Origin: an uncultured Candidatus Marinamargulisbacteria bacterium
GTDB taxonomy: Bacteria; Margulisbacteria; Riflemargulisbacteria; GWF2-35-9
DNA: 48,022 nucleotides
Assembly (NCBI GenBank): GCA_903910705.1
Contig: CAIWAN010000068.1
Coordinates: 1-48,022 of the forward strand
Direction of reading: 5' to 3'
Shown here: piece after piece, positions 36,968 to 48,022 of the stretch
Numbering within the stretch: the stretch's first letter is position 1
Layout of the letters: each line of letters starts with the position of its first letter
Position numbers and translations under genes: made by a program
Notes under the pieces: generated by a model
What the model was told of the DNA's origin: nothing
Seen by the model: only the letters and a program-made list of their open reading frames with translations
The model's database searches: none

Positions 36968-37735
36968 TCAGTTGTTCTGGCAATTGAATATCCCAAGGAT
37001 TTGTTCATATCGCGGTCCGGGACGCTTCAGAACCTCCTGAGAAAGAAATAATATTTTTGTTCTTTTTGGCCAGAGGCCATCATACCAGTCCGACTGACCT
37101 CTCTCAAGCACTAGGATAATATCAGGCGAAACCTCCGCCAACCCCTCTCGGCCCATCATCGGATATCGCTGAAATCCTTTAAACACAGACGAGAAACCCG
37201 CCGCCTTTAACATAGGCGTATAAAATGACTCCTGACCCAACACATAGGCCGCTTCGATTCGACCATTTCGGACAACTTGCTCAAGAATAACAAGCACTGA
37301 CCGAGTAGGCAAAGAAGAAGGATTTAAGGGAAACGGATGATGCTTTAGCCACTGTGTCGCAACTTTTTCTTCTCTCAAAATGGTTCCTAGCCGTTTTACC
37401 ATGTCTCGGATCCCTTCAATCGACTCGGCATCAAACGTCTCAACCTTAAGATGGTGTTTTCGACAAAACGCGATCAACGGGGCATGGGTTTTCAATAGCA
37501 GAACGATATCCGGCTTCAATGAAAGGAGTCGTTCCTCATTGACATCATTATACCCCCCCACACTGGGCAGCTTTTTGGCCGCTTCGGGGTAGTCACAGTA
37601 ACGTGTCACCCCCACTAACTGCGATTGGCCTCCCAGCAGAAACACCGTCTCAGTGATGCTCGGCGCAAGGGACACGATGCGAGCCGGAAAGACAAGGCTC
37701 ATGAAACATATGACGAAGAATAGCCGTCTTAAAAT
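36968..37735 (-). CDS. btuF: BtuF-like periplasmic cobalamin-binding protein
   Basis: A periplasmic-binding-protein-2-type (BtuF/FepB) lipid-free carrier. The mature part opens 'ARIVSLAPSITETVFLLGGQ', the family's diagnostic N-terminus, followed by 'VGVTRYCDYPEAAKKLPSVG' and 'LLSLKPDIVLLLKTH'; 'EVSPDIILVLERGQ' marks the second lobe. It delivers vitamin B12 (or another corrinoid) arriving through BtuB. The nearest ATG (37702) leaves a too short signal peptide. The same frame upstream reads ILRRLFFVICFMSLVFPA, a proper signal peptide, but the only usable initiators there are ATT (37735) or ATC (37738). ATT has AAGGTGG seven bases upstream, inside the btuB 3' end, so an ATT start overlapping the btuB stop by seven bases is chosen; ATG 37702 remains the conservative alternative. 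No BtuCD genes are seen in the window. Confidence 0.85.
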   Translation of the reverse strand: MLRRLFFVICFMSLVFPARIVSLAPSITETVFLLGGQSQLVGVTRYCDYPEAAKKLPSVGGYNDVNEERLLSLKPDIVLLLKTHAPLIAFCRKHHLKVETFDAESIEGIRDMVKRLGTILREEKVATQWLKHHPFPLNPSSLPTRSVLVILEQVVRNGRIEAAYVLGQESFYTPMLKAAGFSSVFKGFQRYPMMGREGLAEVSPDIILVLERGQSDWYDGLWPKRTKILFLSQEVLKRPGPRYEQILGIFNCQNN

Positions 37736-39477
37736 GATACCCCCACCTTAACCCCAAATGTTCGTCCAGGCATTGCATACCCACGATATTCCTCATACGT
37801 TTGATTGAAAACATTGTGTGTAAAAACCGAATAGATATCTTTGGTGTAATCCATGTCCACAGTCCAATAGCTTGGCAATGACGTTGAACCACCTGTTGAA
37901 ATCAAGCGTTCTGAGACATAATTTGCCCTCATCGACACACTGCCAGCCAGACCGCCAACGCTTAGCGTTCCATTCACTTTTGTTTTCGCTCGATTTTGCA
38001 GCCAAGCCCCAGTATTTTCGTCACTTGCATCCAGCATTTGTGTCCAGTTGAGGCTATACAATATCGCCTCGCCAACACTACCGAACCACTCGGTTTCAAT
38101 GCCGCTCACCCGTGCACGACCAACATTGTTAGGCGAGGATGAGGACCAATCGTCGGTGAAACACCATTCGATAAGATCGCTTACTTTCTTCTCAAAATAA
38201 GACGACCGAAAGCTCCCCATCGAGGTTCTGATAGACAGTTCAAGGTCAACGTTTTTGGCTGTTTCGGGACGAAGGCTGGGGTTCCCCGCACTTCCCCAAG
38301 CATCCTGATAATAAAGGTCAGCTAAGGAAGGAGCGCGAAAAGAGGTGCCATAGGAAGTCTTTAGCGTGCAATCCTTGCCGAACAAGAAGGAAGCCCCCAC
38401 TTTATAGGTATCCGCAATTCCAAAAGTCGAATGGCTGTCGCGTCTCAATCCGACGTTCACTCTGCATCCGGGCATCACAACCCAATCATCATTGACAAAT
38501 GCCGCCTTATTGAGAATTGTTTCATTGTAAGCAAGCATGCTGTCTTTGGGGATGACTTGATTTGCTTCTAGTCCCATAAAAAAAGAATGACTTCCGAGAG
38601 AGAGCTCCTGATTACCACCCAGCGTATTTGTCCAACCCTTGGAGTCGGTCACATTTCCGCTTACCGCGGTTCGCTCATCACACTTTGTAGAAAAAAATAG
38701 TCGACCACCCTGAGGATGATTATCTGCAACCTGAGCCTGAAGCAAATACCCTTGATCTTTTTGTTCAGAGGCCGAATACGGGCCCGCTGGATTCCCCCTT
38801 TGATCTGAGTAGGTCGAACCGACCACCCTTATATTAAAATCGCTCATAATATCCCCGCTATAGGCTAATGCCAGACTGTCATTATTAAAGTATCCCATAG
38901 GAAGGTAGCCATCATATCGACCATGGATCAGGCTCAACTGCACGCTTGAAGCCGTTGTTCCCTGCGACCAAGCTAACGAAAGATTTTGATTCCCGTATGA
39001 ACCCAGCTCTAGGTTCAATTTGTTCTTCTCTAGCGTTCTTTTTGAGACAATATTGATTACACCACCTACCGCATCAGCACCATAAACAGCTGACATGCCC
39101 CCTCGATATGCTTGAATTTCCTTAATCTGTTCAAGGTTAATATTGTTGAGATCCACGGTTCCATAAACAGCGTTCTTCATCGGCACCCCATCGAGAAGAA
39201 TCAACGTTTGGTTTGAATTAGCGCCCTGAAGGGAGAGTGCATTGACGCCACCCTTTCCACCATATCGATTCGCTTGCACCCCAGACTCACCTTGCAAGAT
39301 GTCTCCAATGGTAAAGTCTTTATATCGACAAACATCTTCTTCAGCGATCACAGAGCTATTGGGATAGGTTGAGAGAAATCGAGAAGCCGTCACAACAAAG
39401 TTCAAGTCCGCATTCATCGGACCGGCCAACACTAAACCCAAAAATGCACAGCTAATAACAATACGGGGAATAAACAT
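37729..39477 (-). CDS. btuB: TonB-dependent cobalamin receptor BtuB
   Basis: A 582-residue outer-membrane TonB-dependent receptor. After the signal peptide (VISCAFLGLVLAGPMNA) comes a TonB-box-like 'FVVTASR', then a plug domain with 'FTIGDILQGESGVQANRYG' and 'QTLILLDGVPMKNAVYGTVD', 'AVYGADAVGGVINIVSKRTL'. The remaining residues form a 22-strand-type barrel ending in an aromatic C-terminal residue (KVGVSF), the outer-membrane insertion signal. Its length is close to E. coli BtuB (about 594 residues). The cobalamin riboswitch directly upstream supports corrinoid uptake over siderophore uptake. ATG 39477 has GGAGG (39485-39489) seven bases upstream. btuF follows, coupled at the stop codon. Confidence 0.93.
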   Translation of the reverse strand: MFIPRIVISCAFLGLVLAGPMNADLNFVVTASRFLSTYPNSSVIAEEDVCRYKDFTIGDILQGESGVQANRYGGKGGVNALSLQGANSNQTLILLDGVPMKNAVYGTVDLNNINLEQIKEIQAYRGGMSAVYGADAVGGVINIVSKRTLEKNKLNLELGSYGNQNLSLAWSQGTTASSVQLSLIHGRYDGYLPMGYFNNDSLALAYSGDIMSDFNIRVVGSTYSDQRGNPAGPYSASEQKDQGYLLQAQVADNHPQGGRLFFSTKCDERTAVSGNVTDSKGWTNTLGGNQELSLGSHSFFMGLEANQVIPKDSMLAYNETILNKAAFVNDDWVVMPGCRVNVGLRRDSHSTFGIADTYKVGASFLFGKDCTLKTSYGTSFRAPSLADLYYQDAWGSAGNPSLRPETAKNVDLELSIRTSMGSFRSSYFEKKVSDLIEWCFTDDWSSSSPNNVGRARVSGIETEWFGSVGEAILYSLNWTQMLDASDENTGAWLQNRAKTKVNGTLSVGGLAGSVSMRANYVSERLISTGGSTSLPSYWTVDMDYTKDIYSVFTHNVFNQTYEEYRGYAMPGRTFGVKVGVSF

Positions 39478-39496: not shown

Positions 39497-39610
39497 ATTA
39501 CGTTAAAGGCGTTCCGACTTTTCTGCCTACTTGTCTGCTTTGAGCAGAAGACAGACTCACGGTTGCGGGCCAGCGCGGGGGTTTCACCCGACTTTCCCTT
39601 TAACGATCAC
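39497..39610 (-). ncRNA. Cobalamin riboswitch
   Basis: On the minus strand, the leader contains the conserved pieces of the cobalamin aptamer: 'TTAAAGGGAA', 'GGGTGAAACCCCCGCGCTGG' and 'CCCGCAACCGTGAGTC', the last being the signature of the core junction. The ends pair: CGTTAAAGG (39605-39597) with CCTTTAACG (39509-39501), closing the outer helix. A B12-box-like 'AGTCGGAACGCC' precedes it. The btuB ribosome binding site (39485-39489) lies just after the aptamer, so translational control by adenosylcobalamin is likely: bound ligand represses btuB-btuF. Boundaries are approximate. Confidence 0.92.
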
Positions 39611-39628
39611 ATTATGGCGTAGATGTTA

Positions 39629-41344
39629 TTATTTGAACAGCGAATCGATGTCGTCTTGCTCCATTTTAGCCTCATCAACGCCGAATTCTTTTTGAACAAG
39701 ACTGATCCGCCCCATTTTCTTCAATGCTTTAGCCACTTTAACCATAACCCCTTTTGCATTATCGATCTCTACAGGAGCATAGGTATCTTTTCTAAGATCA
39801 ATGACTTCCCTCACCATGTCGATCAACCCTTCGGCCAACCCTATCATTTTTTTATCTCGTTCGGATTCATCCATTTCGATCAAGATCAAAGCCAAAATGT
39901 CGGGATCCAGTTCCATGAACACTTTAAGCAACTCTTCTTGTGGAAGGGCAATAACATCCTCAAATAGAACGATCATGTCACGAAGCTCAAAAAGCACGTC
40001 AGGATACTTTTCATGAAGGGCCATGGTAAGCTCCGATTTTTTTTCCGCAGGGAATCGATCAATTAAGGGAAGAACCGCATGTTTCCCTCCGATCAAACAG
40101 GAGACCTTATCTTTATAGATTTTTTCAAGTTCATGAATTTCTTCGACAGGATGTTCTACCTCATACGTAAGAAAGGGGATGATCTCAGTTTGCTCCTCCG
40201 TCGTGAATCGTGAAAAAATAACCGCACTCATGTGAGTAGGAAGGTATGAAATAATAATGGCGACCTTTTGCCAATAGGTATCCTGCTCGGGGGAATCGAG
40301 TTGTGGTTTATCCCGTTCAAGCAAATAAGCTAGTTTAATAATATTACTATCCGTTACAAAATCGAAATAATCTCGGATCGCGTTGCTTTCCTTAAAGGTA
40401 AGCTCATCTGCACCCAATCCAGCCAATCCAGACACATCTGCAGAAACATTCCCCATATTCGCTATACCCCCGCCCCCCCCCCCTTGGTGGAAGGTGCCCG
40501 ATGAGGATCCTGACGATTCCCCCGTTGACTCACTTCCAGTGCTAGCGAGATGCGTTGCCGAGCGAGAAAGGGTAAATAAGGCGAACGCAATTCCAGCCAT
40601 CACCAGAATCAACAGCGATCCTAGCACAATGGTGATAATCTCTCTTACCCCGACTTTGCCGGACGCATTGTTCAATAGGAGTCCAATAAACTCTCGGCCC
40701 GATTTGAGTTCATTTTTCACAAAGCCTAAAGTCTTCTCTCTTTCTTTTGCACTGAGTTCCTGTTGTTGAAGACTGCTTTGAAGCAAGGCATTAAACTTAT
40801 CATCGGAACTCTTCTGTGTATTGGTATTGCTATCAATCATGGCCTTGATCGCTTGCATTTCGGCTGTTTGTCCCCCACTATTAGAAAACTTCTCCTTCAT
40901 CACTTTGAGGGTACTATCTTTGTATTGGTCAAAATCTAATATTGATTTAACTTTATCAACAACGGTTTTTTCGCCAACTCCTGCCGAATTGATCCACACA
41001 TTGACCTCATAATGGCTAAAAACATAAGCATTCTGAATATTTGCCTTTGAGATCTGCTTTATGGGAACCCCAGGCAGAAAGAGCGTTTGGATCTTTTGCG
41101 CATTTGCAATATTCACCTTGACTCTAACCTTCAGAGAGATCATGACTTGGTTCGGGCCAAAAATCCTATCGACAAGACTTTGTGCATCTTTTTCTTTGAT
41201 TTGTTGATAAGTAAGTATCTCTGCGCCCGTATTAAATTCTAGATCGACGGGTTTACTGACAATTAAGTTTGATGGCTCCGCCGCCTGCAAGAAGCTGACG
41301 TTGAAGCTTAGGCAAATAAGAAAGAGGGTTATTATCTTTTTCAT
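39629..41344 (-). CDS. FliF-like/FliG-like fusion membrane protein
   Basis: A 571-residue protein with an unusual architecture. Residues 1-21 are a signal peptide (IITLFLICLSFNVSFLQA). Residues about 45-150 form a periplasmic region with 'LVDRIFGPNQVMISLKVRVK', recalling the ring-building motif of FliF/SctJ-type ring proteins. A coiled-coil-prone stretch follows, then one transmembrane helix (about 234-258), a Ser/Gly linker with an 11-base G tract in the DNA, and a cytoplasmic part related to FliG: a middle domain ('VAIIISYLPTHMSAVIFSRF') and a C domain ('FELRDMIVLFEDVIALPQEE' and 'APVEIDNAKGVMVKVAKALK'; compare FliG R-x-x-M-F-x-F-E/D-D and PV-x-L-x-x-V). The last 11 residues, MEQDDIDSLFK, resemble the CheY-docking peptide of FliM (SQxEIDALL) and the C-terminus of CheZ. 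It is the last gene of an operon with two CheY-like proteins. TTG 41347 is possible, but ATG 41344 overlaps the upstream TGA by one base. It could be a rotary, switch or scaffold ring; no biochemical role is known. Confidence 0.72.
   Translation of the reverse strand: MKKIITLFLICLSFNVSFLQAAEPSNLIVSKPVDLEFNTGAEILTYQQIKEKDAQSLVDRIFGPNQVMISLKVRVKVNIANAQKIQTLFLPGVPIKQISKANIQNAYVFSHYEVNVWINSAGVGEKTVVDKVKSILDFDQYKDSTLKVMKEKFSNSGGQTAEMQAIKAMIDSNTNTQKSSDDKFNALLQSSLQQQELSAKEREKTLGFVKNELKSGREFIGLLLNNASGKVGVREIITIVLGSLLILVMAGIAFALFTLSRSATHLASTGSESTGESSGSSSGTFHQGGGGGGIANMGNVSADVSGLAGLGADELTFKESNAIRDYFDFVTDSNIIKLAYLLERDKPQLDSPEQDTYWQKVAIIISYLPTHMSAVIFSRFTTEEQTEIIPFLTYEVEHPVEEIHELEKIYKDKVSCLIGGKHAVLPLIDRFPAEKKSELTMALHEKYPDVLFELRDMIVLFEDVIALPQEELLKVFMELDPDILALILIEMDESERDKKMIGLAEGLIDMVREVIDLRKDTYAPVEIDNAKGVMVKVAKALKKMGRISLVQKEFGVDEAKMEQDDIDSLFK
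40473..40483 (-). repeat. 11-base poly-G tract in fusion-protein linker
   Basis: Eleven consecutive C on the plus strand (G in the coding strand), interrupted by one base from five more (40467-40471). It codes for the Gly run of the linker between membrane helix and FliG-like domains. Tracts this long commonly vary in length by slippage; a one-base change would shift the frame and cut off the entire cytoplasmic part. Confidence 0.85.
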
Positions 41345-42309
41345 CAAAGCATATCTAGAAAATATTTAATTTCTTCATTGTCAGGCTGATAGCGCAATAC
41401 TTGTTCCCAGTATTTTCTGGCTTTTTCATAATCTTGAAGCATATAGAATGACGACCCTTTCAAAGAAAGAGCTCCGATGTGTTTATTGTCTTCTTTTAGA
41501 ATTAAATTGCATTCATCTATTGCCTGCCAAAACTGATAATCATAGAACGCAAGCAAGGCTTTATTGAGTCGTTTTGTTAACACATCGATACTTTCATTTG
41601 AGAGATCTTCATTGTTTCTTTGGTAGGCACTATCCCGTGTCGTCGCCACTTCCCAATACATCGCTTCGCACTGCTTGTTTCGTTTACGGTATGCGCTAAG
41701 TTCAAGCCGATCAAGTGACTGCGAACCACCGACGATGTAGTCACTGATGGCTGAACCAATGATTTGTTGTTCTTTTCGTGTGGCACTGTTTTTATTAGCA
41801 GCCACCTTAGCGGATATCTCCGGATTTTTTATGAGAAGCGCGATAAACTTTTCTCTCGTCACAAGACTTTTATCATTGACAAAGTCACTCAAATTTATTG
41901 TTGGAAAGATCTTTTTTAGCACATCAACAGCTACGGACATATCGACCACATTTTGATAGTTCTTGTCACTGGTTTCAAGATACTTAGACTCAACCCCTGT
42001 CTGAATGTAGGAGAAAGACTTCATCTCAGGGAGCACTTCTTTGAAAAACGGTTTCTGAAGGGACTCGTTCGGGGATATATTCCCCAACCACATTGCAATC
42101 AGCAAAACTTGGAACCCATTAAGATTAGCTTCGGGTTGAAAGGTATTGTCGACGAAGGCCGGCATATACCCATTCGCCATGAAAAACTGAGTCTCATTGT
42201 AATATTGGTAATTTGGGCTAATGTCTGTCACTTCAAGTGCCAATGACAAGGACTGGCACAACACCATAAAAGCGCAGAAAATCAGTATTCTTAGTTGATT
42301 TATTAACAA
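41344..42309 (-). CDS. Periplasmic protein with SLH-like and TPR segments
   Basis: A 321-residue secreted protein. The signal peptide is 'LRILIFCAFMVLCQSLSLA'. Residues about 30-85 ('TQFFMANGYMPAFVDNTFQP' then 'NGFQVLLIAMWLG') follow the SLH pattern of an alpha-helix, a 'G-x-x-D-x-T-F-x-P' turn and an 'R-x-E/F' helix; a second weaker copy lies around 115-160 ('INLSDFVNDKSLVTREKFIA'). The C-terminal 58 residues are two TPR units ('ALSLKGSSFYMLQDYEKARK' and 'YWEQVLRYQPDNEEIKYFL'). The role may be to link the membrane-ring-like fusion protein to the cell wall or surface glycan; SLH domains can bind pyruvylated polymers. The start is TTG 42309 (GAGG eight bases upstream, retains the full signal peptide); no good ATG fits. 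It overlaps the fusion-protein gene by one base. No enzyme motif is seen. Confidence 0.6.
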   Translation of the reverse strand: MLINQLRILIFCAFMVLCQSLSLALEVTDISPNYQYYNETQFFMANGYMPAFVDNTFQPEANLNGFQVLLIAMWLGNISPNESLQKPFFKEVLPEMKSFSYIQTGVESKYLETSDKNYQNVVDMSVAVDVLKKIFPTINLSDFVNDKSLVTREKFIALLIKNPEISAKVAANKNSATRKEQQIIGSAISDYIVGGSQSLDRLELSAYRKRNKQCEAMYWEVATTRDSAYQRNNEDLSNESIDVLTKRLNKALLAFYDYQFWQAIDECNLILKEDNKHIGALSLKGSSFYMLQDYEKARKYWEQVLRYQPDNEEIKYFLDML

Positions 42310-42374
42310 TCCCTTACCCTCAATTAGTTGCGAACAATAGGGCGTTTCACACCTTTTGATAGGATAGTATAGGG

Positions 42375-42402
42375 AACGCTAATATTCAATAATATTAGCG
42401 TT
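42375..42402 (-). promoter_or_regulatory. Perfect 12-bp inverted repeat after the first receiver gene
   Basis: AACGCTAATATT (42375-42386), loop CAAT, AATATTAGCGTT (42391-42402). It begins at the stop codon of the receiver gene and lies 66 bases before the SLH/TPR start. No U-tract follows on the minus strand, so it is an RNA stability or partial-termination hairpin, or a dimeric protein-binding site, rather than a classic terminator. Confidence 0.55.
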
Positions 42403-42761
42403 TATCGTTCTAACATTTTTTTTATTTGTTCAAGCATCCGTGTTTCATCAAAGGGCTTAACAACAAAATTTTTTGCTCCACATTCTAAGGCTTTCAAAAT
42501 ATGTTCTTGCTGTGAGGCGTTGCTAAGCATGACTACTTTGGCATTTTTATCGATCTTCATAATTTCTTGAAGCGCTTCTAGTCCACTCATGTTTGGCATA
42601 TTAACATCCATCAGAACTAAATCAGGCATTTGTGCCTTGTAGATTTCGAGCGCTTTAACCCCATCTGCTGCATCACTGACTTGATACCCCGCCGCTTCCA
42701 AGAGCTTGCGTAGTCGCATCCGAAGGAATGCAGCATCATCGACAATAAGAACCTTAACCAT
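42402..42761 (-). CDS. CheY-like single-domain response regulator
   Basis: A 119-residue stand-alone receiver domain. It has the acidic pocket (Asp8, Asp9 in 'VLIVDDAAF'), the phospho-accepting Asp52 ('LVLMDVNMP'), the switch Ser80 ('VVMLSNASQQ') in place of the usual Thr, and the conserved Lys102 ('VVKPFDE'). There is no output domain, so like CheY it must act by protein-protein contact. Its start codon follows the stop of the second receiver directly (TAAATG), so the two are co-translated. Its stop lies 93 bases before the SLH/TPR gene. It is 69 percent identical (82 of 119 positions, counted by eye) to its neighbour, showing a recent tandem duplication. Confidence 0.92.
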   Translation of the reverse strand: MVKVLIVDDAAFLRMRLRKLLEAAGYQVSDAADGVKALEIYKAQMPDLVLMDVNMPNMSGLEALQEIMKIDKNAKVVMLSNASQQEHILKALECGAKNFVVKPFDETRMLEQIKKMLER

Positions 42762-43127
42762 TTAGACCCCTTGGGATAAGACTTTTCCAATAACACTGAG
42801 AAGGTTCTTCTCATCAAAAGGTTTAACCACAAAATTTCTTGCACCCAATTCTAATGCTTTCATAATGGTCTCTTGTTGGGAAACATTGCTTAACATGACT
42901 ACTTTGGCTTTATTATCGAGCTTCATGATTTCATATAAAGCGTCTAATCCATTCATGACGGGCATATGTACGTCCATCAGAACAATATCTGGCGACTCCG
43001 TCTTGTAAGCCTCGATCGCTTTTTCACCATCTGCCGCCTCGCTGAAAACATGTCCAGAGGCAACCAAAAGCTTTCGCAAGCGCATACGAAAAAAAGCAGC
43101 ATCATCAACAATCAGCACTTTCGCCAC
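42762..43127 (-). CDS. CheY-like single-domain response regulator
   Basis: A 121-residue receiver with the same key residues as its neighbour: Asp8, Asp9 ('VLIVDDAAFF'), Asp52 ('IVLMDVHMP'), Ser80 and Lys102 ('VVKPFDEK'). An upstream GTG at 43163 gives twelve more residues without family counterparts; the GTG at 43127 (GGGG seven to ten bases upstream) aligns exactly with the start of the paralogue and is preferred. It is first in an operon with its own promoter (43178-43206), running through the second receiver, the SLH/TPR protein and the FliF/FliG-like fusion. No histidine kinase gene is in the window, so the input is unknown. Confidence 0.9.
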   Translation of the reverse strand: MAKVLIVDDAAFFRMRLRKLLVASGHVFSEAADGEKAIEAYKTESPDIVLMDVHMPVMNGLDALYEIMKLDNKAKVVMLSNVSQQETIMKALELGARNFVVKPFDEKNLLSVIGKVLSQGV

Positions 43128-43177
43128 TTGCAACCCCAATTCTTTTTGGTATACGCCCCCCACTTTTACACCGCTAT

Positions 43178-43206
43178 ATAATATAGCAAAATCACACTGA
43201 TGACAA
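43178..43206 (-). promoter_or_regulatory. Sigma-70-type promoter of receiver/FliG-like operon
   Basis: On the minus strand: TTGTCA (43206-43201), a 17-base spacer, TATTAT (43183-43178; five of six consensus). It lies about 50 bases before the GTG start at 43127 and after the stop of the giant protein (43235), so the receiver operon is likely transcribed separately from that gene. Confidence 0.68.
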
Positions 43207-43234: not shown

Positions 43235-46200
43235 TCAATGAATAATGGCGATGACCCGTTTTCCTAGAACCTCTTTTGCTTCTGCATCATAGATGATCAT
43301 CGGATACCCGCCTAAAGGCAGTTTATTCCCCATTTGATCGGTTCCGTTCCATTCGATTTCGTTCGCACCAGCCATCCCCCCTCTTCCACCTTCAAAATAA
43401 TTGGACTCATAAAGGGTTTTTCCGTAAATATTATAGATCTTAATCGATATCTTTTTGTTTTGATTTAAATAGTAGTATATCGTTGTATTCTCAAGGTTGC
43501 TATTAAACGGATTAGGATAGTTCGAAAGATTGGTCAACACTTTGGTTGGCATCCCTGTTGAGATGGGGTCCGTTGCTATCAGATAATCGGAAAACAGACC
43601 CGCTGTATTCAGCGCGCGCACTTTGTAATAATACGACGTTTCATTCTTTAGATTATCGACCTCTACAAAAGAAGCAGGATAGGATACCGTTCTATTTAAA
43701 ACCCATTCGGGATCCTGCCCTGTTCGAGAATAAACCTCAACAACGCTAACCGCCGAAACATCTTCAACAACACTACCCCAAAAGACTTTGTGTTTGATAC
43801 TGGACGCATTTTTTATCTGAGCAATATCCATTTTGTTTTTAACAAAGGTTGGCTTAGTAAGGTCAGCGGTGAGCGCCCATGTAAAGACATCGCTTTCGAA
43901 TCCCAATGCATTCTGAGCTTTAAGACTAAGCTGATAGTCTCTGCCCTGTTCAAAGGGGATGCTATAAAGCGACACGGCCTTAACCGCCGTATTGCTATCA
44001 ACGGTGACCCCGCTCACTTCAAAAGCACCCTCGATCATGGGTGCAAAAGAAACGATGACATTGTTGTCGAGTTTATCCTTGATCTCGCAAAGAACACTAT
44101 TGCTTTCCTCCGTTTTGCTCAGAGTCACAACAAGGTTAAGCGAGACCATATTATTTACATATCGAGTATTCACGGCTCGAACTTTATGGGGATGGAGTTG
44201 GCTTCTAATATTATAGCTGACTGATTGAAAGCTATAGCTAGGTACCCGTCCAAAATCCATTAAAAAAGAGGCTTCATTGATGGCAAATTTTATGGACGCA
44301 CTGGTTACCGAACCAATATTTAAGATAAAGGTCAGTCCTTTCGTATTTTCCGTTACCCCCAATGGACTTACAAAGCTGAATAGATTCGATCCTGCGTTGA
44401 GATAAGCTTGAGATAGGACGCCTCCATCATTATTATTCCTTACTTTTAATAAAATATTATTTAGATTTGATCCCACGTAGTTGATTGAGATGTTGATCGC
44501 ATTTAGGGTTGATCGGTTATGGTCTACTGCAAGATTAAGGTTGAAAATTGGTGTATCCTGAGGAGGTGCAAATAGCGCATCGTCTAAAACCGGATCGAAG
44601 GTAACTAATAGGGTTGGAGCGTATGGCAGTATGTTTAATGTATTCATGGCCGCATCCAAATTCTTCGACAACATTTCACTGCTGTTATCAAGAACAAAAG
44701 AATCAATACTCAACGATTTGTAGGTAATGGCCTTAATATTGGCCGAGGTGTAAGCAAGATCTGCGACCAAGTAGTAGTTTTGTTCCCCTTCATTGACCTC
44801 CTGTGGCATGGGGAAAGAAAGTGAAATCCTTGAATTCGCGAAAGAAAGCCCTGACAATTGGAGGCTATCAATACTTAGCTGTATTGCCCCCCCCACAACA
44901 GCTTTCTTGTAAAGCCGAACATTGTAGAACATATTGTCGGATACACTGTTTGTCTTTTCTATAGAGGTGCTCGACAAATAGGACGTGCCCTTTAGGGTTC
45001 GTAGTGAGAAGTCGGCCAAGACCACATTCTTCTGGCCAATAGAAACATTGAACGTCGGCAAGGCATAGTTTTTCAACAAAACTTGATTGCGTTGTTTTGA
45101 TATTGAAAATAGCGGCGTAGTTAAGGGAAAGTTCGTTGAGGCTGGCTCTCCACCATGACTCAAGAAAACGTCGACACTCGCGATATAAAGGTTAAACGAG
45201 TTTCCAACGACAGCATTCTTGTTAACATTGAGCACGACAAAATACTTTGAACCATTCACAGCTGGAATCTCTGTGCCACTGAACTTCAGCAAGGCTCTAT
45301 TATTTTTAAAATTGGCTTTATTTGTCAATGCAACAATCGATTCACTATCTCGATCGGATACCTTTCCGATATAGATGCTTTCAATATCGGAATCAAAGAC
45401 ATTCCCACTGATCGATATCTTTACCGTATCCACATACATAAAGTCAGTATTGTTATTCAGGGTTAACTCTGCCGCACGAACATCCGTATCTCCCGCATAG
45501 AGACTTGAACTGAGAGGATTAAGGCTGCTTACCTTCAGAACCGGAACAAAAATATTGACAAGGGACGCCCCGCCCATCAAGGCTCCCGCTTCGATCTTTG
45601 TTTGTGCTGAGAATCGGCTATTATTGTTGCGCGTAACAGCAACCTGAAAATAGGCTTGTCCTTGATAGGATTCATCCTTGGCAATGTTGAGAGTTGCAAA
45701 ATAATACGTTCCGCTCGCATTGTCTGTTGACTTCAGCGTGAGATAAATCGGTAGAACCGTTCCATTTAGCAAAACAAGATTCATGCTAGGCAGGCTATCG
45801 AGAGCCGATTTAATATCAATAATATTTAAGGTGACCTGCAAGACTCCAGGGAAAATGGACGCCCCTAAGTTGGTATATATTGTCGCATATTGTGAAGAGC
45901 CGATTTCATCAGGATTATATTCAATCGTTGTCTGAGAATCCGTTGTAGTCACATTGTCAGCTCTATCCTTGATCCATAAATGAATGGTTTTTATTCCTGA
46001 CTGAAGATTGCGAAAGTTATATTCGCTTGGCTTCACAAAAGACCAATGCGAATCGTTTGCTGCGGGTCTTGAATTGTATTCTTCGCCCATCATCCATGCA
46101 TAGTAATCAACACTGTCACTCAGATTAACGTTAACGATCAAATTATTCGTTTTTGCGGATAACCCCGTGTTCTTATCAGAAACGTAAAAGGTGGGGGGTA

Positions 46201-48022
46201 AGTCAATTTTTGTATCGATCACAATATCTCGATCACCCTCAATATTAATATAATTCGAACCCGTGTAGTTAACCACTTGCAGGCTACTTCGTGTCGCGGA
46301 AAGCTCAAAATGGGCCGCTCCGTCATAACTGTCAGCCAAAATATTTAATGTTGCCATATAGAAAGAATTGGTCGCATCAACTGTGATGCACTTATAAAGA
46401 TTTAACGTGATCAGGTTGCCACTTAGGCTCAGCCACATGTTTGGCGTTGAGATATTGGAGTCTTTAATATTTAACGTAATATTCATCTGTCCCACGCTGA
46501 CATAGCGAGTACTTAACTGAACACTCGTATAACCTGCAGGAGGTTGAGCCAGTGGATTGTAATTTATGTTTGCTGAAACAGATGATGTGGAAATATTATG
46601 GGCTCTATCCATCACCCAGAAATAAACGACCTTTTTTTCAACATTTAGATTTTGAAATGTATAGTCGGCCGGATCCTGATAAACCCAACGTTTGTCAGTT
46701 ATCGCTGGTTGGTCTTGATATGAGACACCCTCACCCAGCATCCAAGCGTAATAATCACTGTTAGCTGTGTATCTTACACCCACACTAAAATCGTTAACGT
46801 CTTTTGTAACGGTAGGACTATCTTTATCAAACATCTCAAATCCTTGGGGATTGTTGATCTGGGTATCCAATACCACTCGATTCCGGCCATTGATATATCC
46901 CGCACTCATGATGTCACTGTTTAATAATACGACCAGCCCCGAATCCTTTGTCGTCTGTACCCAGAAATACGCGACCCCATCCTTTGTTCCACTCGCCGGC
47001 ACATCCATCGACAACACATAGCTGATCCCCGTTACGCCTTGCGTCACGATCCGCTCAACCCCCAATTTCGCCACATCATTCGGACTACAAAGCATAGAGT
47101 AGTGAATCCAGATATCGGGTGTTAGTTTAAATGGCTTGGAAATATCAAAATTCACCGTCACTTCGTATGTGCCAGCCTTTAGATATTCCTTCTCCGTCGT
47201 GATGTACACAAAATTCCCAAAACTCGCCCCAGGCCCTTCGCCATTCCCACCGCTTCCATATCCTGCCAACAAGCCGATCTTTGTCTGAACATTTCCCGCA
47301 TTATCTGTCACCATGATGTTCCACGTCACTTTTGGAGATGTTGTCAGTGTACTTACATCGACCATGCCCGACCATACACGCCGATCACTCGTCTCATCCC
47401 AACTCACAGATCCAAGCAATATCCCACCATTGATTTCAAAGCGTAGATCAGGTGTGATGTCGACGGCCTCGTCGAGCTTGATCGACACAAAATAACTATC
47501 TTTACTCACAACCGGACTCCAGTTGTCATATAGCTCGACCCCTGTTTTGGTCCGGTCATAAATGATACTTCGGCTCACCATCTCTCCATTGATATTTTGC
47601 GCGTTGTCCATCGTCCACAAATAGACCGTCTTGATCCCATCGTCTCCATTCATAAACCCATACTCGTACGGCTTCTCTGCTCGCCAATAATCGCTCGTCA
47701 CCGTCGGACTGCTCGTGATCACTTCGCTTACGATCCATCGAACCACATCTCGATCACTACTGATCGTTACCCGTGGATAGCTGTCATTCGTATAGTCCGC
47801 TCGGCTCGTCTCATAGTCGTTCATCGTTAGGCTCGGATTGTTGATCTGGGTATCCAACACCACGCGGTTCCGGCCATTGATATATCCCGCACTCATGATG
47901 TCACTCGTTAACGCCACCACCATACCCGCATCTTTTGTCGCTCGTACCCAGAAATACGCAACCCCGTCCTTTGTTCCACTCGCCGGCACATCCATCGTTA
48001 ATATATAGCTGACCCCCGTTAC
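43235..48022 (-). CDS. Giant repetitive secreted protein, FN3 and FlgD-like tail (5' end beyond window)
   Basis: The open frame continues to the window's right edge without a stop, so the true start lies outside; at least 1595 residues are seen. A repeat of period 329 residues carries 'MDVPASGTKDGVAYFW' and 'SAGYINGRNRVVLDTQINNP'; further Ig-like repeats share 'K-V-YLW-x-D-A-N' (e.g. 'GIKTVYLWTMDNAQNI', 'GIKTIHLWIKDRADNV'). After these come beta-rich domains, an FN3-like segment ('NETSYYYKVRALNTAGLFSD') and a FlgD-type Ig tail ('NLSNYPNPFNSN', ending 'GGYPMIIYDAEAKEVLGKRV'). The shared repeat logic with the 338 protein indicates the same surface-protein family. No catalytic motif is seen; adhesin or sheath-like function is inferred. 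An 8-base C run lies at 44887-44894. Confidence 0.8.
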   Translation of the reverse strand, partial: VTGVSYILTMDVPASGTKDGVAYFWVRATKDAGMVVALTSDIMSAGYINGRNRVVLDTQINNPSLTMNDYETSRADYTNDSYPRVTISSDRDVVRWIVSEVITSSPTVTSDYWRAEKPYEYGFMNGDDGIKTVYLWTMDNAQNINGEMVSRSIIYDRTKTGVELYDNWSPVVSKDSYFVSIKLDEAVDITPDLRFEINGGILLGSVSWDETSDRRVWSGMVDVSTLTTSPKVTWNIMVTDNAGNVQTKIGLLAGYGSGGNGEGPGASFGNFVYITTEKEYLKAGTYEVTVNFDISKPFKLTPDIWIHYSMLCSPNDVAKLGVERIVTQGVTGISYVLSMDVPASGTKDGVAYFWVQTTKDSGLVVLLNSDIMSAGYINGRNRVVLDTQINNPQGFEMFDKDSPTVTKDVNDFSVGVRYTANSDYYAWMLGEGVSYQDQPAITDKRWVYQDPADYTFQNLNVEKKVVYFWVMDRAHNISTSSVSANINYNPLAQPPAGYTSVQLSTRYVSVGQMNITLNIKDSNISTPNMWLSLSGNLITLNLYKCITVDATNSFYMATLNILADSYDGAAHFELSATRSSLQVVNYTGSNYINIEGDRDIVIDTKIDLPPTFYVSDKNTGLSAKTNNLIVNVNLSDSVDYYAWMMGEEYNSRPAANDSHWSFVKPSEYNFRNLQSGIKTIHLWIKDRADNVTTTDSQTTIEYNPDEIGSSQYATIYTNLGASIFPGVLQVTLNIIDIKSALDSLPSMNLVLLNGTVLPIYLTLKSTDNASGTYYFATLNIAKDESYQGQAYFQVAVTRNNNSRFSAQTKIEAGALMGGASLVNIFVPVLKVSSLNPLSSSLYAGDTDVRAAELTLNNNTDFMYVDTVKISISGNVFDSDIESIYIGKVSDRDSESIVALTNKANFKNNRALLKFSGTEIPAVNGSKYFVVLNVNKNAVVGNSFNLYIASVDVFLSHGGEPASTNFPLTTPLFSISKQRNQVLLKNYALPTFNVSIGQKNVVLADFSLRTLKGTSYLSSTSIEKTNSVSDNMFYNVRLYKKAVVGGAIQLSIDSLQLSGLSFANSRISLSFPMPQEVNEGEQNYYLVADLAYTSANIKAITYKSLSIDSFVLDNSSEMLSKNLDAAMNTLNILPYAPTLLVTFDPVLDDALFAPPQDTPIFNLNLAVDHNRSTLNAINISINYVGSNLNNILLKVRNNNDGGVLSQAYLNAGSNLFSFVSPLGVTENTKGLTFILNIGSVTSASIKFAINEASFLMDFGRVPSYSFQSVSYNIRSQLHPHKVRAVNTRYVNNMVSLNLVVTLSKTEESNSVLCEIKDKLDNNVIVSFAPMIEGAFEVSGVTVDSNTAVKAVSLYSIPFEQGRDYQLSLKAQNALGFESDVFTWALTADLTKPTFVKNKMDIAQIKNASSIKHKVFWGSVVEDVSAVSVVEVYSRTGQDPEWVLNRTVSYPASFVEVDNLKNETSYYYKVRALNTAGLFSDYLIATDPISTGMPTKVLTNLSNYPNPFNSNLENTTIYYYLNQNKKISIKIYNIYGKTLYESNYFEGGRGGMAGANEIEWNGTDQMGNKLPLGGYPMIIYDAEAKEVLGKRVIAIIH
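46848..47035 (-). repeat. Copy 1 of an approximately 987-bp-period repeat
   Basis: This segment aligns base for base with few differences to the segment at 47835-48022, offset 987 bases (329 codons). It encodes the MDVPASG...NRVVLDTQINNP module. Confidence 0.8.
47835..48022 (-). repeat. Copy 2 of the repeat, cut by window edge
   Basis: Second copy of the module at 46848, with mostly synonymous and conservative differences. It continues beyond the window. Confidence 0.8.

Follow-up and report, generated by a model that had tools for sequence, protein, structure and literature searches.

An operon with a FliF/FliG-type fusion protein in Margulisbacteria as the candidate rotor and switch input of a flagellum-independent machine with its own MotAB stator

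The minus-strand operon at positions 39629-43206 of contig CAIWAN010000068.1, from an uncultured Candidatus Marinamargulisbacteria bacterium, was analyzed within a window that comprises the whole stretch of 48,022 nucleotides. The operon encodes a 571-aa protein in which a FliF-type periplasmic domain is fused to the middle (M) and C-terminal (C) domains of FliG, together with a secreted tetratricopeptide repeat (TPR) protein and two CheY-type receivers. To our knowledge, the flagellar motor is normally known solely as part of the flagellum. On balance, we favor the view that the operon supplies a rotary machine, ion-driven and independent of the flagellum, with its rotor and switch input, the stator being a dedicated MotAB. 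A sequence-only reading of the operon had described a FliF/FliG-type fusion outside a flagellar cluster, and the fusion proved genuine in Pfam searches, in profile comparisons, and in a comparison of the fusion-family profile with solved FliG structures (PDB), which gave 7.5e-44, far above chance. All four genes were recovered on the minus strand by open reading frame calling. The fusion gene (39629-41344; ATG at 41344, TTG at 41347 also possible) overlaps slightly with the TPR gene, and the two receiver genes abut. The closest named relative of the host genome is 'Candidatus Marinamargulisbacteria' AM_bin-3330, with 80% identity across the fusion.

The fusion protein consists of an N-terminal signal-like helix, a periplasmic domain, a membrane helix, a glycine-rich linker, FliG M, and FliG C. 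The FliG C-terminal domain (residues 443-549, 39698-40018) was matched by Pfam FliG_C above the cut-off (3.6e-8, residues 444-550), and the NCBIfam fliG model TIGR00207 matched the protein at 4.4e-10. The FliG match of the C-terminal half thus held, in a protein that is not part of an ordinary flagellar cluster. For the middle-domain-like region (residues 325-435, 40040-40372), the FliG_M match was 5.7e-4 in the window copy, under the Pfam cut-off, with relatives above it; hhalign aligned the region with canonical FliG columns 124-326 at 97% probability. The glycine pair G419/G420 is invariant in the A2 alignment, and the fusions retain the GG linker, the LFED hinge region, and the order of the M and C domains. 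Hydropathy predicted a single internal transmembrane helix at residues 239-257 (40574-40630). The two receivers, the one internal membrane helix, and FliG M and C had all been recognized from the sequence and were confirmed, with FliG_M weak in the window copy.

The periplasmic domain (residues 41-156, 40877-41224) is, by profile comparison, homologous to the region of FliF that holds the third ring-building motif (RBM3), transitively for the class to which the window protein belongs (class A). N-terminal domains of the fusion classes B, C, and H aligned with FliF residues 237-402 at 79-86% probability in hhalign, and the pooled fusion profile aligned with FliF at 95% (E 2.7e-8). Eight unrelated families served as negative controls, and all stayed below 4%. 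The class H fusion L056 was above the cut-off for Pfam YscJ_FliF_C. The class A domain matched those of class B (94.6%) and class H (93%); because these in turn match FliF, kinship with RBM3 holds for the family and is transitive for the window protein. The earlier description of a ring-like periplasmic part agrees with this result. In a low-confidence model, the window domain shows the order helix-strand-insert-strand-helix-strand, the same split order that is known for FliF RBM3 (PMC4768692).

Of FliF, the fusion contains RBM3 alone, and of FliG just the M and C domains. RBM1/RBM2 (PF01514, YscJ_FliF), present in canonical FliF, were absent from the window fusion and the other fusions tested with Pfam. 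The FliG N domain (PF14842) was not found in the window, L006, L056, and L097 fusions, and only an overlapping match of 0.0014 was obtained in L106; the alignment of the fusions to canonical FliG starts at about column 100-124. The C-terminal tail with which FliF binds FliG_N is missing, and FliG M and C follow the membrane helix in its place. By eye, the FliM-binding motif EHPQ is also gone (TYWQ in the window protein versus EQPQ in the canonical copy), which fits the absence of FliM.

Canonical fliF (517 aa) and fliG (334 aa), both Pfam-confirmed, are found elsewhere in this genome, on contig C25, where fliH-, fliI-, and fliJ-like genes follow them. The genome also encodes three Flagellin_N proteins, SpoA (FliM/FliN-type) proteins, FlhA, and a separate flagellar stator. 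As judged from this gene content, the window genome builds a flagellum, and the fusion is an additional gene outside the flagellar cluster. The earlier proposal that one polypeptide replaces FliF plus FliG was therefore rejected. Purpose-built profiles detected no further MotA, MotB, FliF, or FliG homologue in the window, in line with the earlier remark that no other flagellar gene lies nearby. Two publications (PMC6349859, PMC6784892) mention neither flagella nor motility for this lineage.

The distribution of the fusion was surveyed in 55 Margulisbacteria genomes; these are related, and the figures describe a pattern rather than independent trials. Non-canonical FliGs were present in 23 of the 55 (a 179-aa fragment in G018 was excluded), and 15 of these 23 lack flagellin, while full FliF was found in 52 of 55 irrespective of the fusion. 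Outside the phylum, a scan of a wider collection with the window protein, sensitive to close relatives only, returned a same-genus orthologue alone. The distribution bears on the possibility that the ordinary flagellum uses the fusion as an accessory or alternative part of its rotor, such as a CheY-regulated auxiliary C-ring layer or a stator-recruiting ring. The window genome does build a flagellum, and the receivers and the docking peptide described below would suit chemotaxis control. We nevertheless regard this explanation as quite improbable, given the flagellin-less carriers, the separate loci and stator lineages of the fusions, and their lack of FliG_N, FliF RBM1/2, and the FliM-binding EHPQ.

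A MotA-family gene lies within 7 kb on the same contig at 36 of the 63 places that encode a non-canonical FliG_C (about 2.2 expected) and within 1.5 kb at 23 of them (about 0.5 expected); the canonical fliG has such a gene within 7 kb in 0 of 8 cases. MotA/MotB genes are linked to a rotor gene in 19 genomes. A full-length MotA-family protein occurs in 23/23 genomes with non-canonical FliG and in 2/32 others (co-occurrence 23/0/2/30), where G008, G010, G013, G015, G018, G023, and G054, whose MotA frames measure only 115-138 aa, were scored as not having it. The ion-binding channel Asp of MotB is conserved in nearly all copies, and the stators of classes A, B, and H are separate from those of C and D in the MotA tree. 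In the window genome, contig C70 encodes a MotA that shares 76% identity with its counterpart in the class A operon of G003, and the C70 MotAB pair is the predicted cognate class A stator of the window fusion, unlinked to the operon. The fusions stand beside MotAB genes even in genomes without flagellin, and the arrangement therefore looks like a flagellar motor reused for a non-flagellar drive. A MotAB-type stator engaged by a simplified, CheY-regulated ring had been suggested from the sequence; this remains the best reading, with the amendment that the ring would belong to an additional machine and not to a simplified flagellum. Five rotor sets and five MotA-type stators were counted in the 2.2-Mb window genome (C25/C64, C68/C70, C104, C3, and C57/C53), the pairings of C64 (flagellar) and C53 (class D) being based on neighbors in relatives and on nearest relatives in the MotA comparison.

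The gene order differs between the classes. Class A, the window type, has the order CheY-CheY-TPR-fusion, to which MotAB is joined in G003 and G004; on contig C25 of G003, a single 855-aa TPR-fusion chain is followed by MotA-MotB. In class B, the fusion is accompanied by another FliG-like gene and by a giant surface protein, and MotAB lies within or near the cluster. Class C has the order MotA-MotB-fusion, and its sets in G002 and G003 include CheY genes. Class H, found in genomes without flagellin, reads hemL-TPR-fusion-MotA-MotB-rho, where the outer genes are what we take to be hemL and rho from recognition of their sequences, with no profile search. In class D, unfused FliF_C-type and FliG genes adjoin MotA-MotB, and several sets include a small FliM-like protein. 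The class D FliF retains the FliG-binding tail (by eye) and the class D FliG its N domain, both of which the fusions lack; with its halves unfused beside motA-motB, class D shows what was fused. A set on contig C57 of the window genome (L008:5693-12125) comprises unfused FliF_C-like, FliG-like (N, M, C), and small FliM-like genes with TPR outer-membrane-type proteins, and a methyl-accepting chemotaxis-type protein is encoded nearby. An 825-aa chain in G012 (contig C18, L108:6793-9270) joins FliF_C-like, SLH-like (by eye), and FliG-like parts and looks like an independent fusion.

FlhA, full FliF, rod-type Flg_bbr_C, and FliM/N-like proteins were found in nearly all Margulisbacteria, and flagellin in eight only; in the window genome the observation concerns contigs C94, C91, and C66. 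Most of the phylum apparently keeps a filament-less, rod-only flagellar export apparatus. About 30 genomes have flagellar export genes and neither a FliG homologue nor a full-length MotA. Such an apparatus (FlhA, FliF, rod proteins, and FliM/N, no flagellin) might be what the fusion serves, since it occurs in nearly every genome and would have no FliG of its own. This explanation is very improbable in our judgment: the roughly 30 genomes just mentioned retain the apparatus without either protein, and the fusion resides at other loci, such as the class H locus, and is devoid of RBM1/2.

A candidate switch input was found at the C terminus of the window protein. The peptide EQDDIDSLFK (39632-39661) resembles the FliM N-terminal LSQxEIDALL in motif comparison. 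An end of the form Q-x-[D/E]-[I/V]-D-x-[L/F/I]-[L/F/I] is shared by nine of the ten class A fusions and by none of 26 other fusions, against a background of 1.35 matches in 981 shuffled proteins. The same type of motif is present at the N termini of FliM (MSSILSQDEINALL) and FliN (MSGDISIDQNEIDSLL) of the window genome, and in FliM it binds phosphorylated CheY (PMC6700473, PMC9126983). The window-type fusion therefore bears a predicted CheY dock, a look-alike that is C-terminal rather than at the N terminus of FliM. Both receivers of the operon are single-domain CheY-type proteins: receiver 1 (42762-43163, probable true start near 43127) matched Response_reg at 1.7e-28, and receiver 2 (42402-42761) at 3.7e-32, with CheY as its top NCBIfam model. 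Receiver genes adjoin fusions of classes A, B, and C, and CheA is encoded in all eight Marinamargulisbacteria genomes and in no flagellin-less fusion carrier. From the motif, its likeness to FliM, and the distribution of CheA, class A appears to join pieces of three rotor proteins, namely FliF RBM3, FliG M and C, and the CheY-binding peptide of FliM. The docking peptide was absent from the sequence-only reading and strengthens the link to CheY that it had drawn.

Several results weigh against a rotary machine of this kind. The main counter-evidence is that the torque charges of FliG are mostly lost: the classical residues K264, R281, D288, D289, and R297 correspond to I, G, E, V, and A in the window protein. 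They are mostly unconserved in the fused classes A, B, C, and H, and several are retained by canonical FliGs and most class D FliGs; either the stator must therefore be contacted differently, or torque is not passed on as in known FliGs. When compared alone with FliF, the class A periplasmic domain reached only 1.5% in hhalign; this direct match was dropped, and the transitive and pooled comparisons were used instead. AlphaFold2 was uninformative, with predicted local distance difference test scores of 38.5 for the full fusion and 41.6 for the periplasmic domain. The window operon itself contains no MotAB, and the class A loci of G002 and G004 lack the CheYs although the peptide stays. The loss of the torque-helix charges would suit a device without rotation, in which the FliG-like part serves as a static scaffold or a sensor and collects MotAB units into an ion-driven envelope-tension or TolQR/ExbBD-like apparatus. 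TPR and envelope partners would fit such a device as well, and MotA-family motors also drive systems without a FliG-type rotor. We consider it unlikely, since the fusions keep the GG linker, the FliG hinge region, and the M+C order, MotB keeps its channel Asp, and the CheY dock suggests a switchable output.

In the rotary machine that we favor, the signal peptide and the membrane helix of the fusion would bring about its insertion into the inner membrane. RBM3-type domains would build a ring in the periplasm, each subunit would span the membrane with one helix, and FliG M and C would form a cytoplasmic ring on which dedicated, peptidoglycan-anchored MotAB stators push. The covalent fusion would stand in for the flagellar joint between the FliF tail and FliG_N. 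Phosphorylated CheY-type receivers of the operon may change the speed or the direction by docking on the Q-x-[D/E]-[I/V]-D-x-L-F peptide; with the dock on the fusion's own chain, FliM would not be needed. The TPR protein would link ring and outer envelope, with the movement or export of surface proteins, such as the adjoining giant adhesin, as the output.

The TPR protein (41344-42309) is the conserved partner of the fusion in relatives. TPR was found by Pfam near residues 280-311, preceded by possible degenerate SLH repeats. The earlier designation as an SLH/TPR protein stands for TPR; SLH was below threshold in the window copy and was matched in 1 of 11 aligned relatives (1.6e-9). Upstream of the operon, a giant surface protein that runs past the window end (43235-48022, minus strand) has an FlgD_ig-like 'NYPNPFN' C-terminal domain (Pfam FlgD_ig 1.5e-3, CHU_C 0.014; TIGR04183 0.0059) and is probably functionally linked to it. 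In G002 (L041), the class A locus likewise has a neighboring giant with this ending, and class B loci adjoin giants as well. The giant Ig-like protein at L006:11282-19012 has the same FlgD_ig/'PNPFN'-type end as the window giant; the two adjoin rotor sets B and A, respectively. A PorV-family outer-membrane protein follows the class A cognate MotAB on C70 of the window genome and twice in G003 (NF033709, above cut-off). The TPR partner, the PorV-family protein, and the giant FlgD_ig-type proteins point to the outer membrane and cell surface, and adhesin movement (gliding) or powered export would be the leading candidates for the output.

These neighbors also raise the possibility that the operon energizes a type IX-like outer-membrane export or surface-anchoring system, with a flagellar-type rotor and MotAB in place of GldLM/PorLM. 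The PorV genes after the class A stators and the giant secreted proteins with type-IX-like C-terminal domains beside class A and B sets speak for it. PorV-family proteins occurred, however, in 55/55 genomes, fusion-less ones included, so that their linkage is unspecific and was down-weighted. The matches to the C-terminal domains are weak, and we rate this explanation as somewhat unlikely. SprA_N was matched in 0/55 genomes, and the control genomes gave no match either, so that this search speaks for neither side. GldLM/PorLM of gliding and type IX secretion is likewise an ion-driven inner-membrane motor tied to surface adhesins and the PorV family, an analogy at the system level only; the motor proteins are different.

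Of the known systems, the flagellar rotor (FliF MS-ring, FliG/FliM/FliN C-ring, MotAB) shares RBM3, the membrane helix, FliG M and C, MotA/MotB, and an EIDxLL-type CheY peptide with the fusion system, which we regard as a variant of the flagellar-type motor that would likewise rotate. In contrast to the flagellar rotor, the fusion system is one polypeptide, lacks RBM1/RBM2, the FliF tail/FliG_N joint, and FliM/FliN, has no linked export gate and altered torque charges, and occurs without flagellin. The closest published case found is the FliF-FliG fusion of the Chlamydiaceae, likewise a natural fusion in a flagella-less bacterium. At about 330 aa it is short, FliG M is the only part of FliG to which its cytosolic portion is homologous, and FliL and FlhA were reported as its sole flagellar companions (PMC4768692). 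The Margulisbacteria fusion, by contrast, has both FliG M and C and comes with a dedicated MotAB, and class A adds a CheY dock. Engineered FliF-FliG fusions were compatible with rotation in Salmonella (PMC4768692) and formed S-rings in Vibrio, with ring assembly (PMC11481574); unlike the Margulisbacteria fusion, these are artificial, and the Salmonella one sits inside a complete flagellum. A FliF-FliG fusion with a dedicated MotAB or a CheY dock was not described in the open-access literature searched.

We tentatively propose that the fusions could represent a new class of autonomous ion-driven rotary machine of flagellar-motor descent. It would have a one-polypeptide rotor (FliF RBM3, FliG M/C, and a FliM-like CheY dock) and dedicated MotAB, would operate without export gate, rod, hook, or filament, would be present in parallel copies per cell (flagellar plus classes A-D), and would move or export surface proteins. 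If true, a conserved rotor-stator unit without a flagellum, in a phylum close to Cyanobacteria, would make the motor a separable module. It would also be a minimal rotor system, in which a single protein takes the place of four, the stator interface differs, and the CheY dock has shifted from FliM to a FliG-like chain. Such a system would bear on the assembly of the flagellum from independent modules or its break-up into them, and might point to a new type of surface motility or secretion.

Two minor elements flank the operon. A promoter had been noted from the sequence; a promoter-like sequence is present (TTGTCA-17-TATTAT, sigma-70-like, 10/12 matches; 43178-43206, minus strand), and such matches occur in the window at the chance rate (10 found versus 9.3 expected from shuffles). 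On the other side, an AdoCbl-II cobalamin riboswitch-like element (39499-39613, minus strand) scored 31.9 bits with a gathering threshold of 36.5 (E 7.1e-6). It lies upstream of genes for a TonB-dependent receptor (37729-39477) and a periplasmic binding protein (36968-37702), and the group probably serves vitamin B12 uptake.

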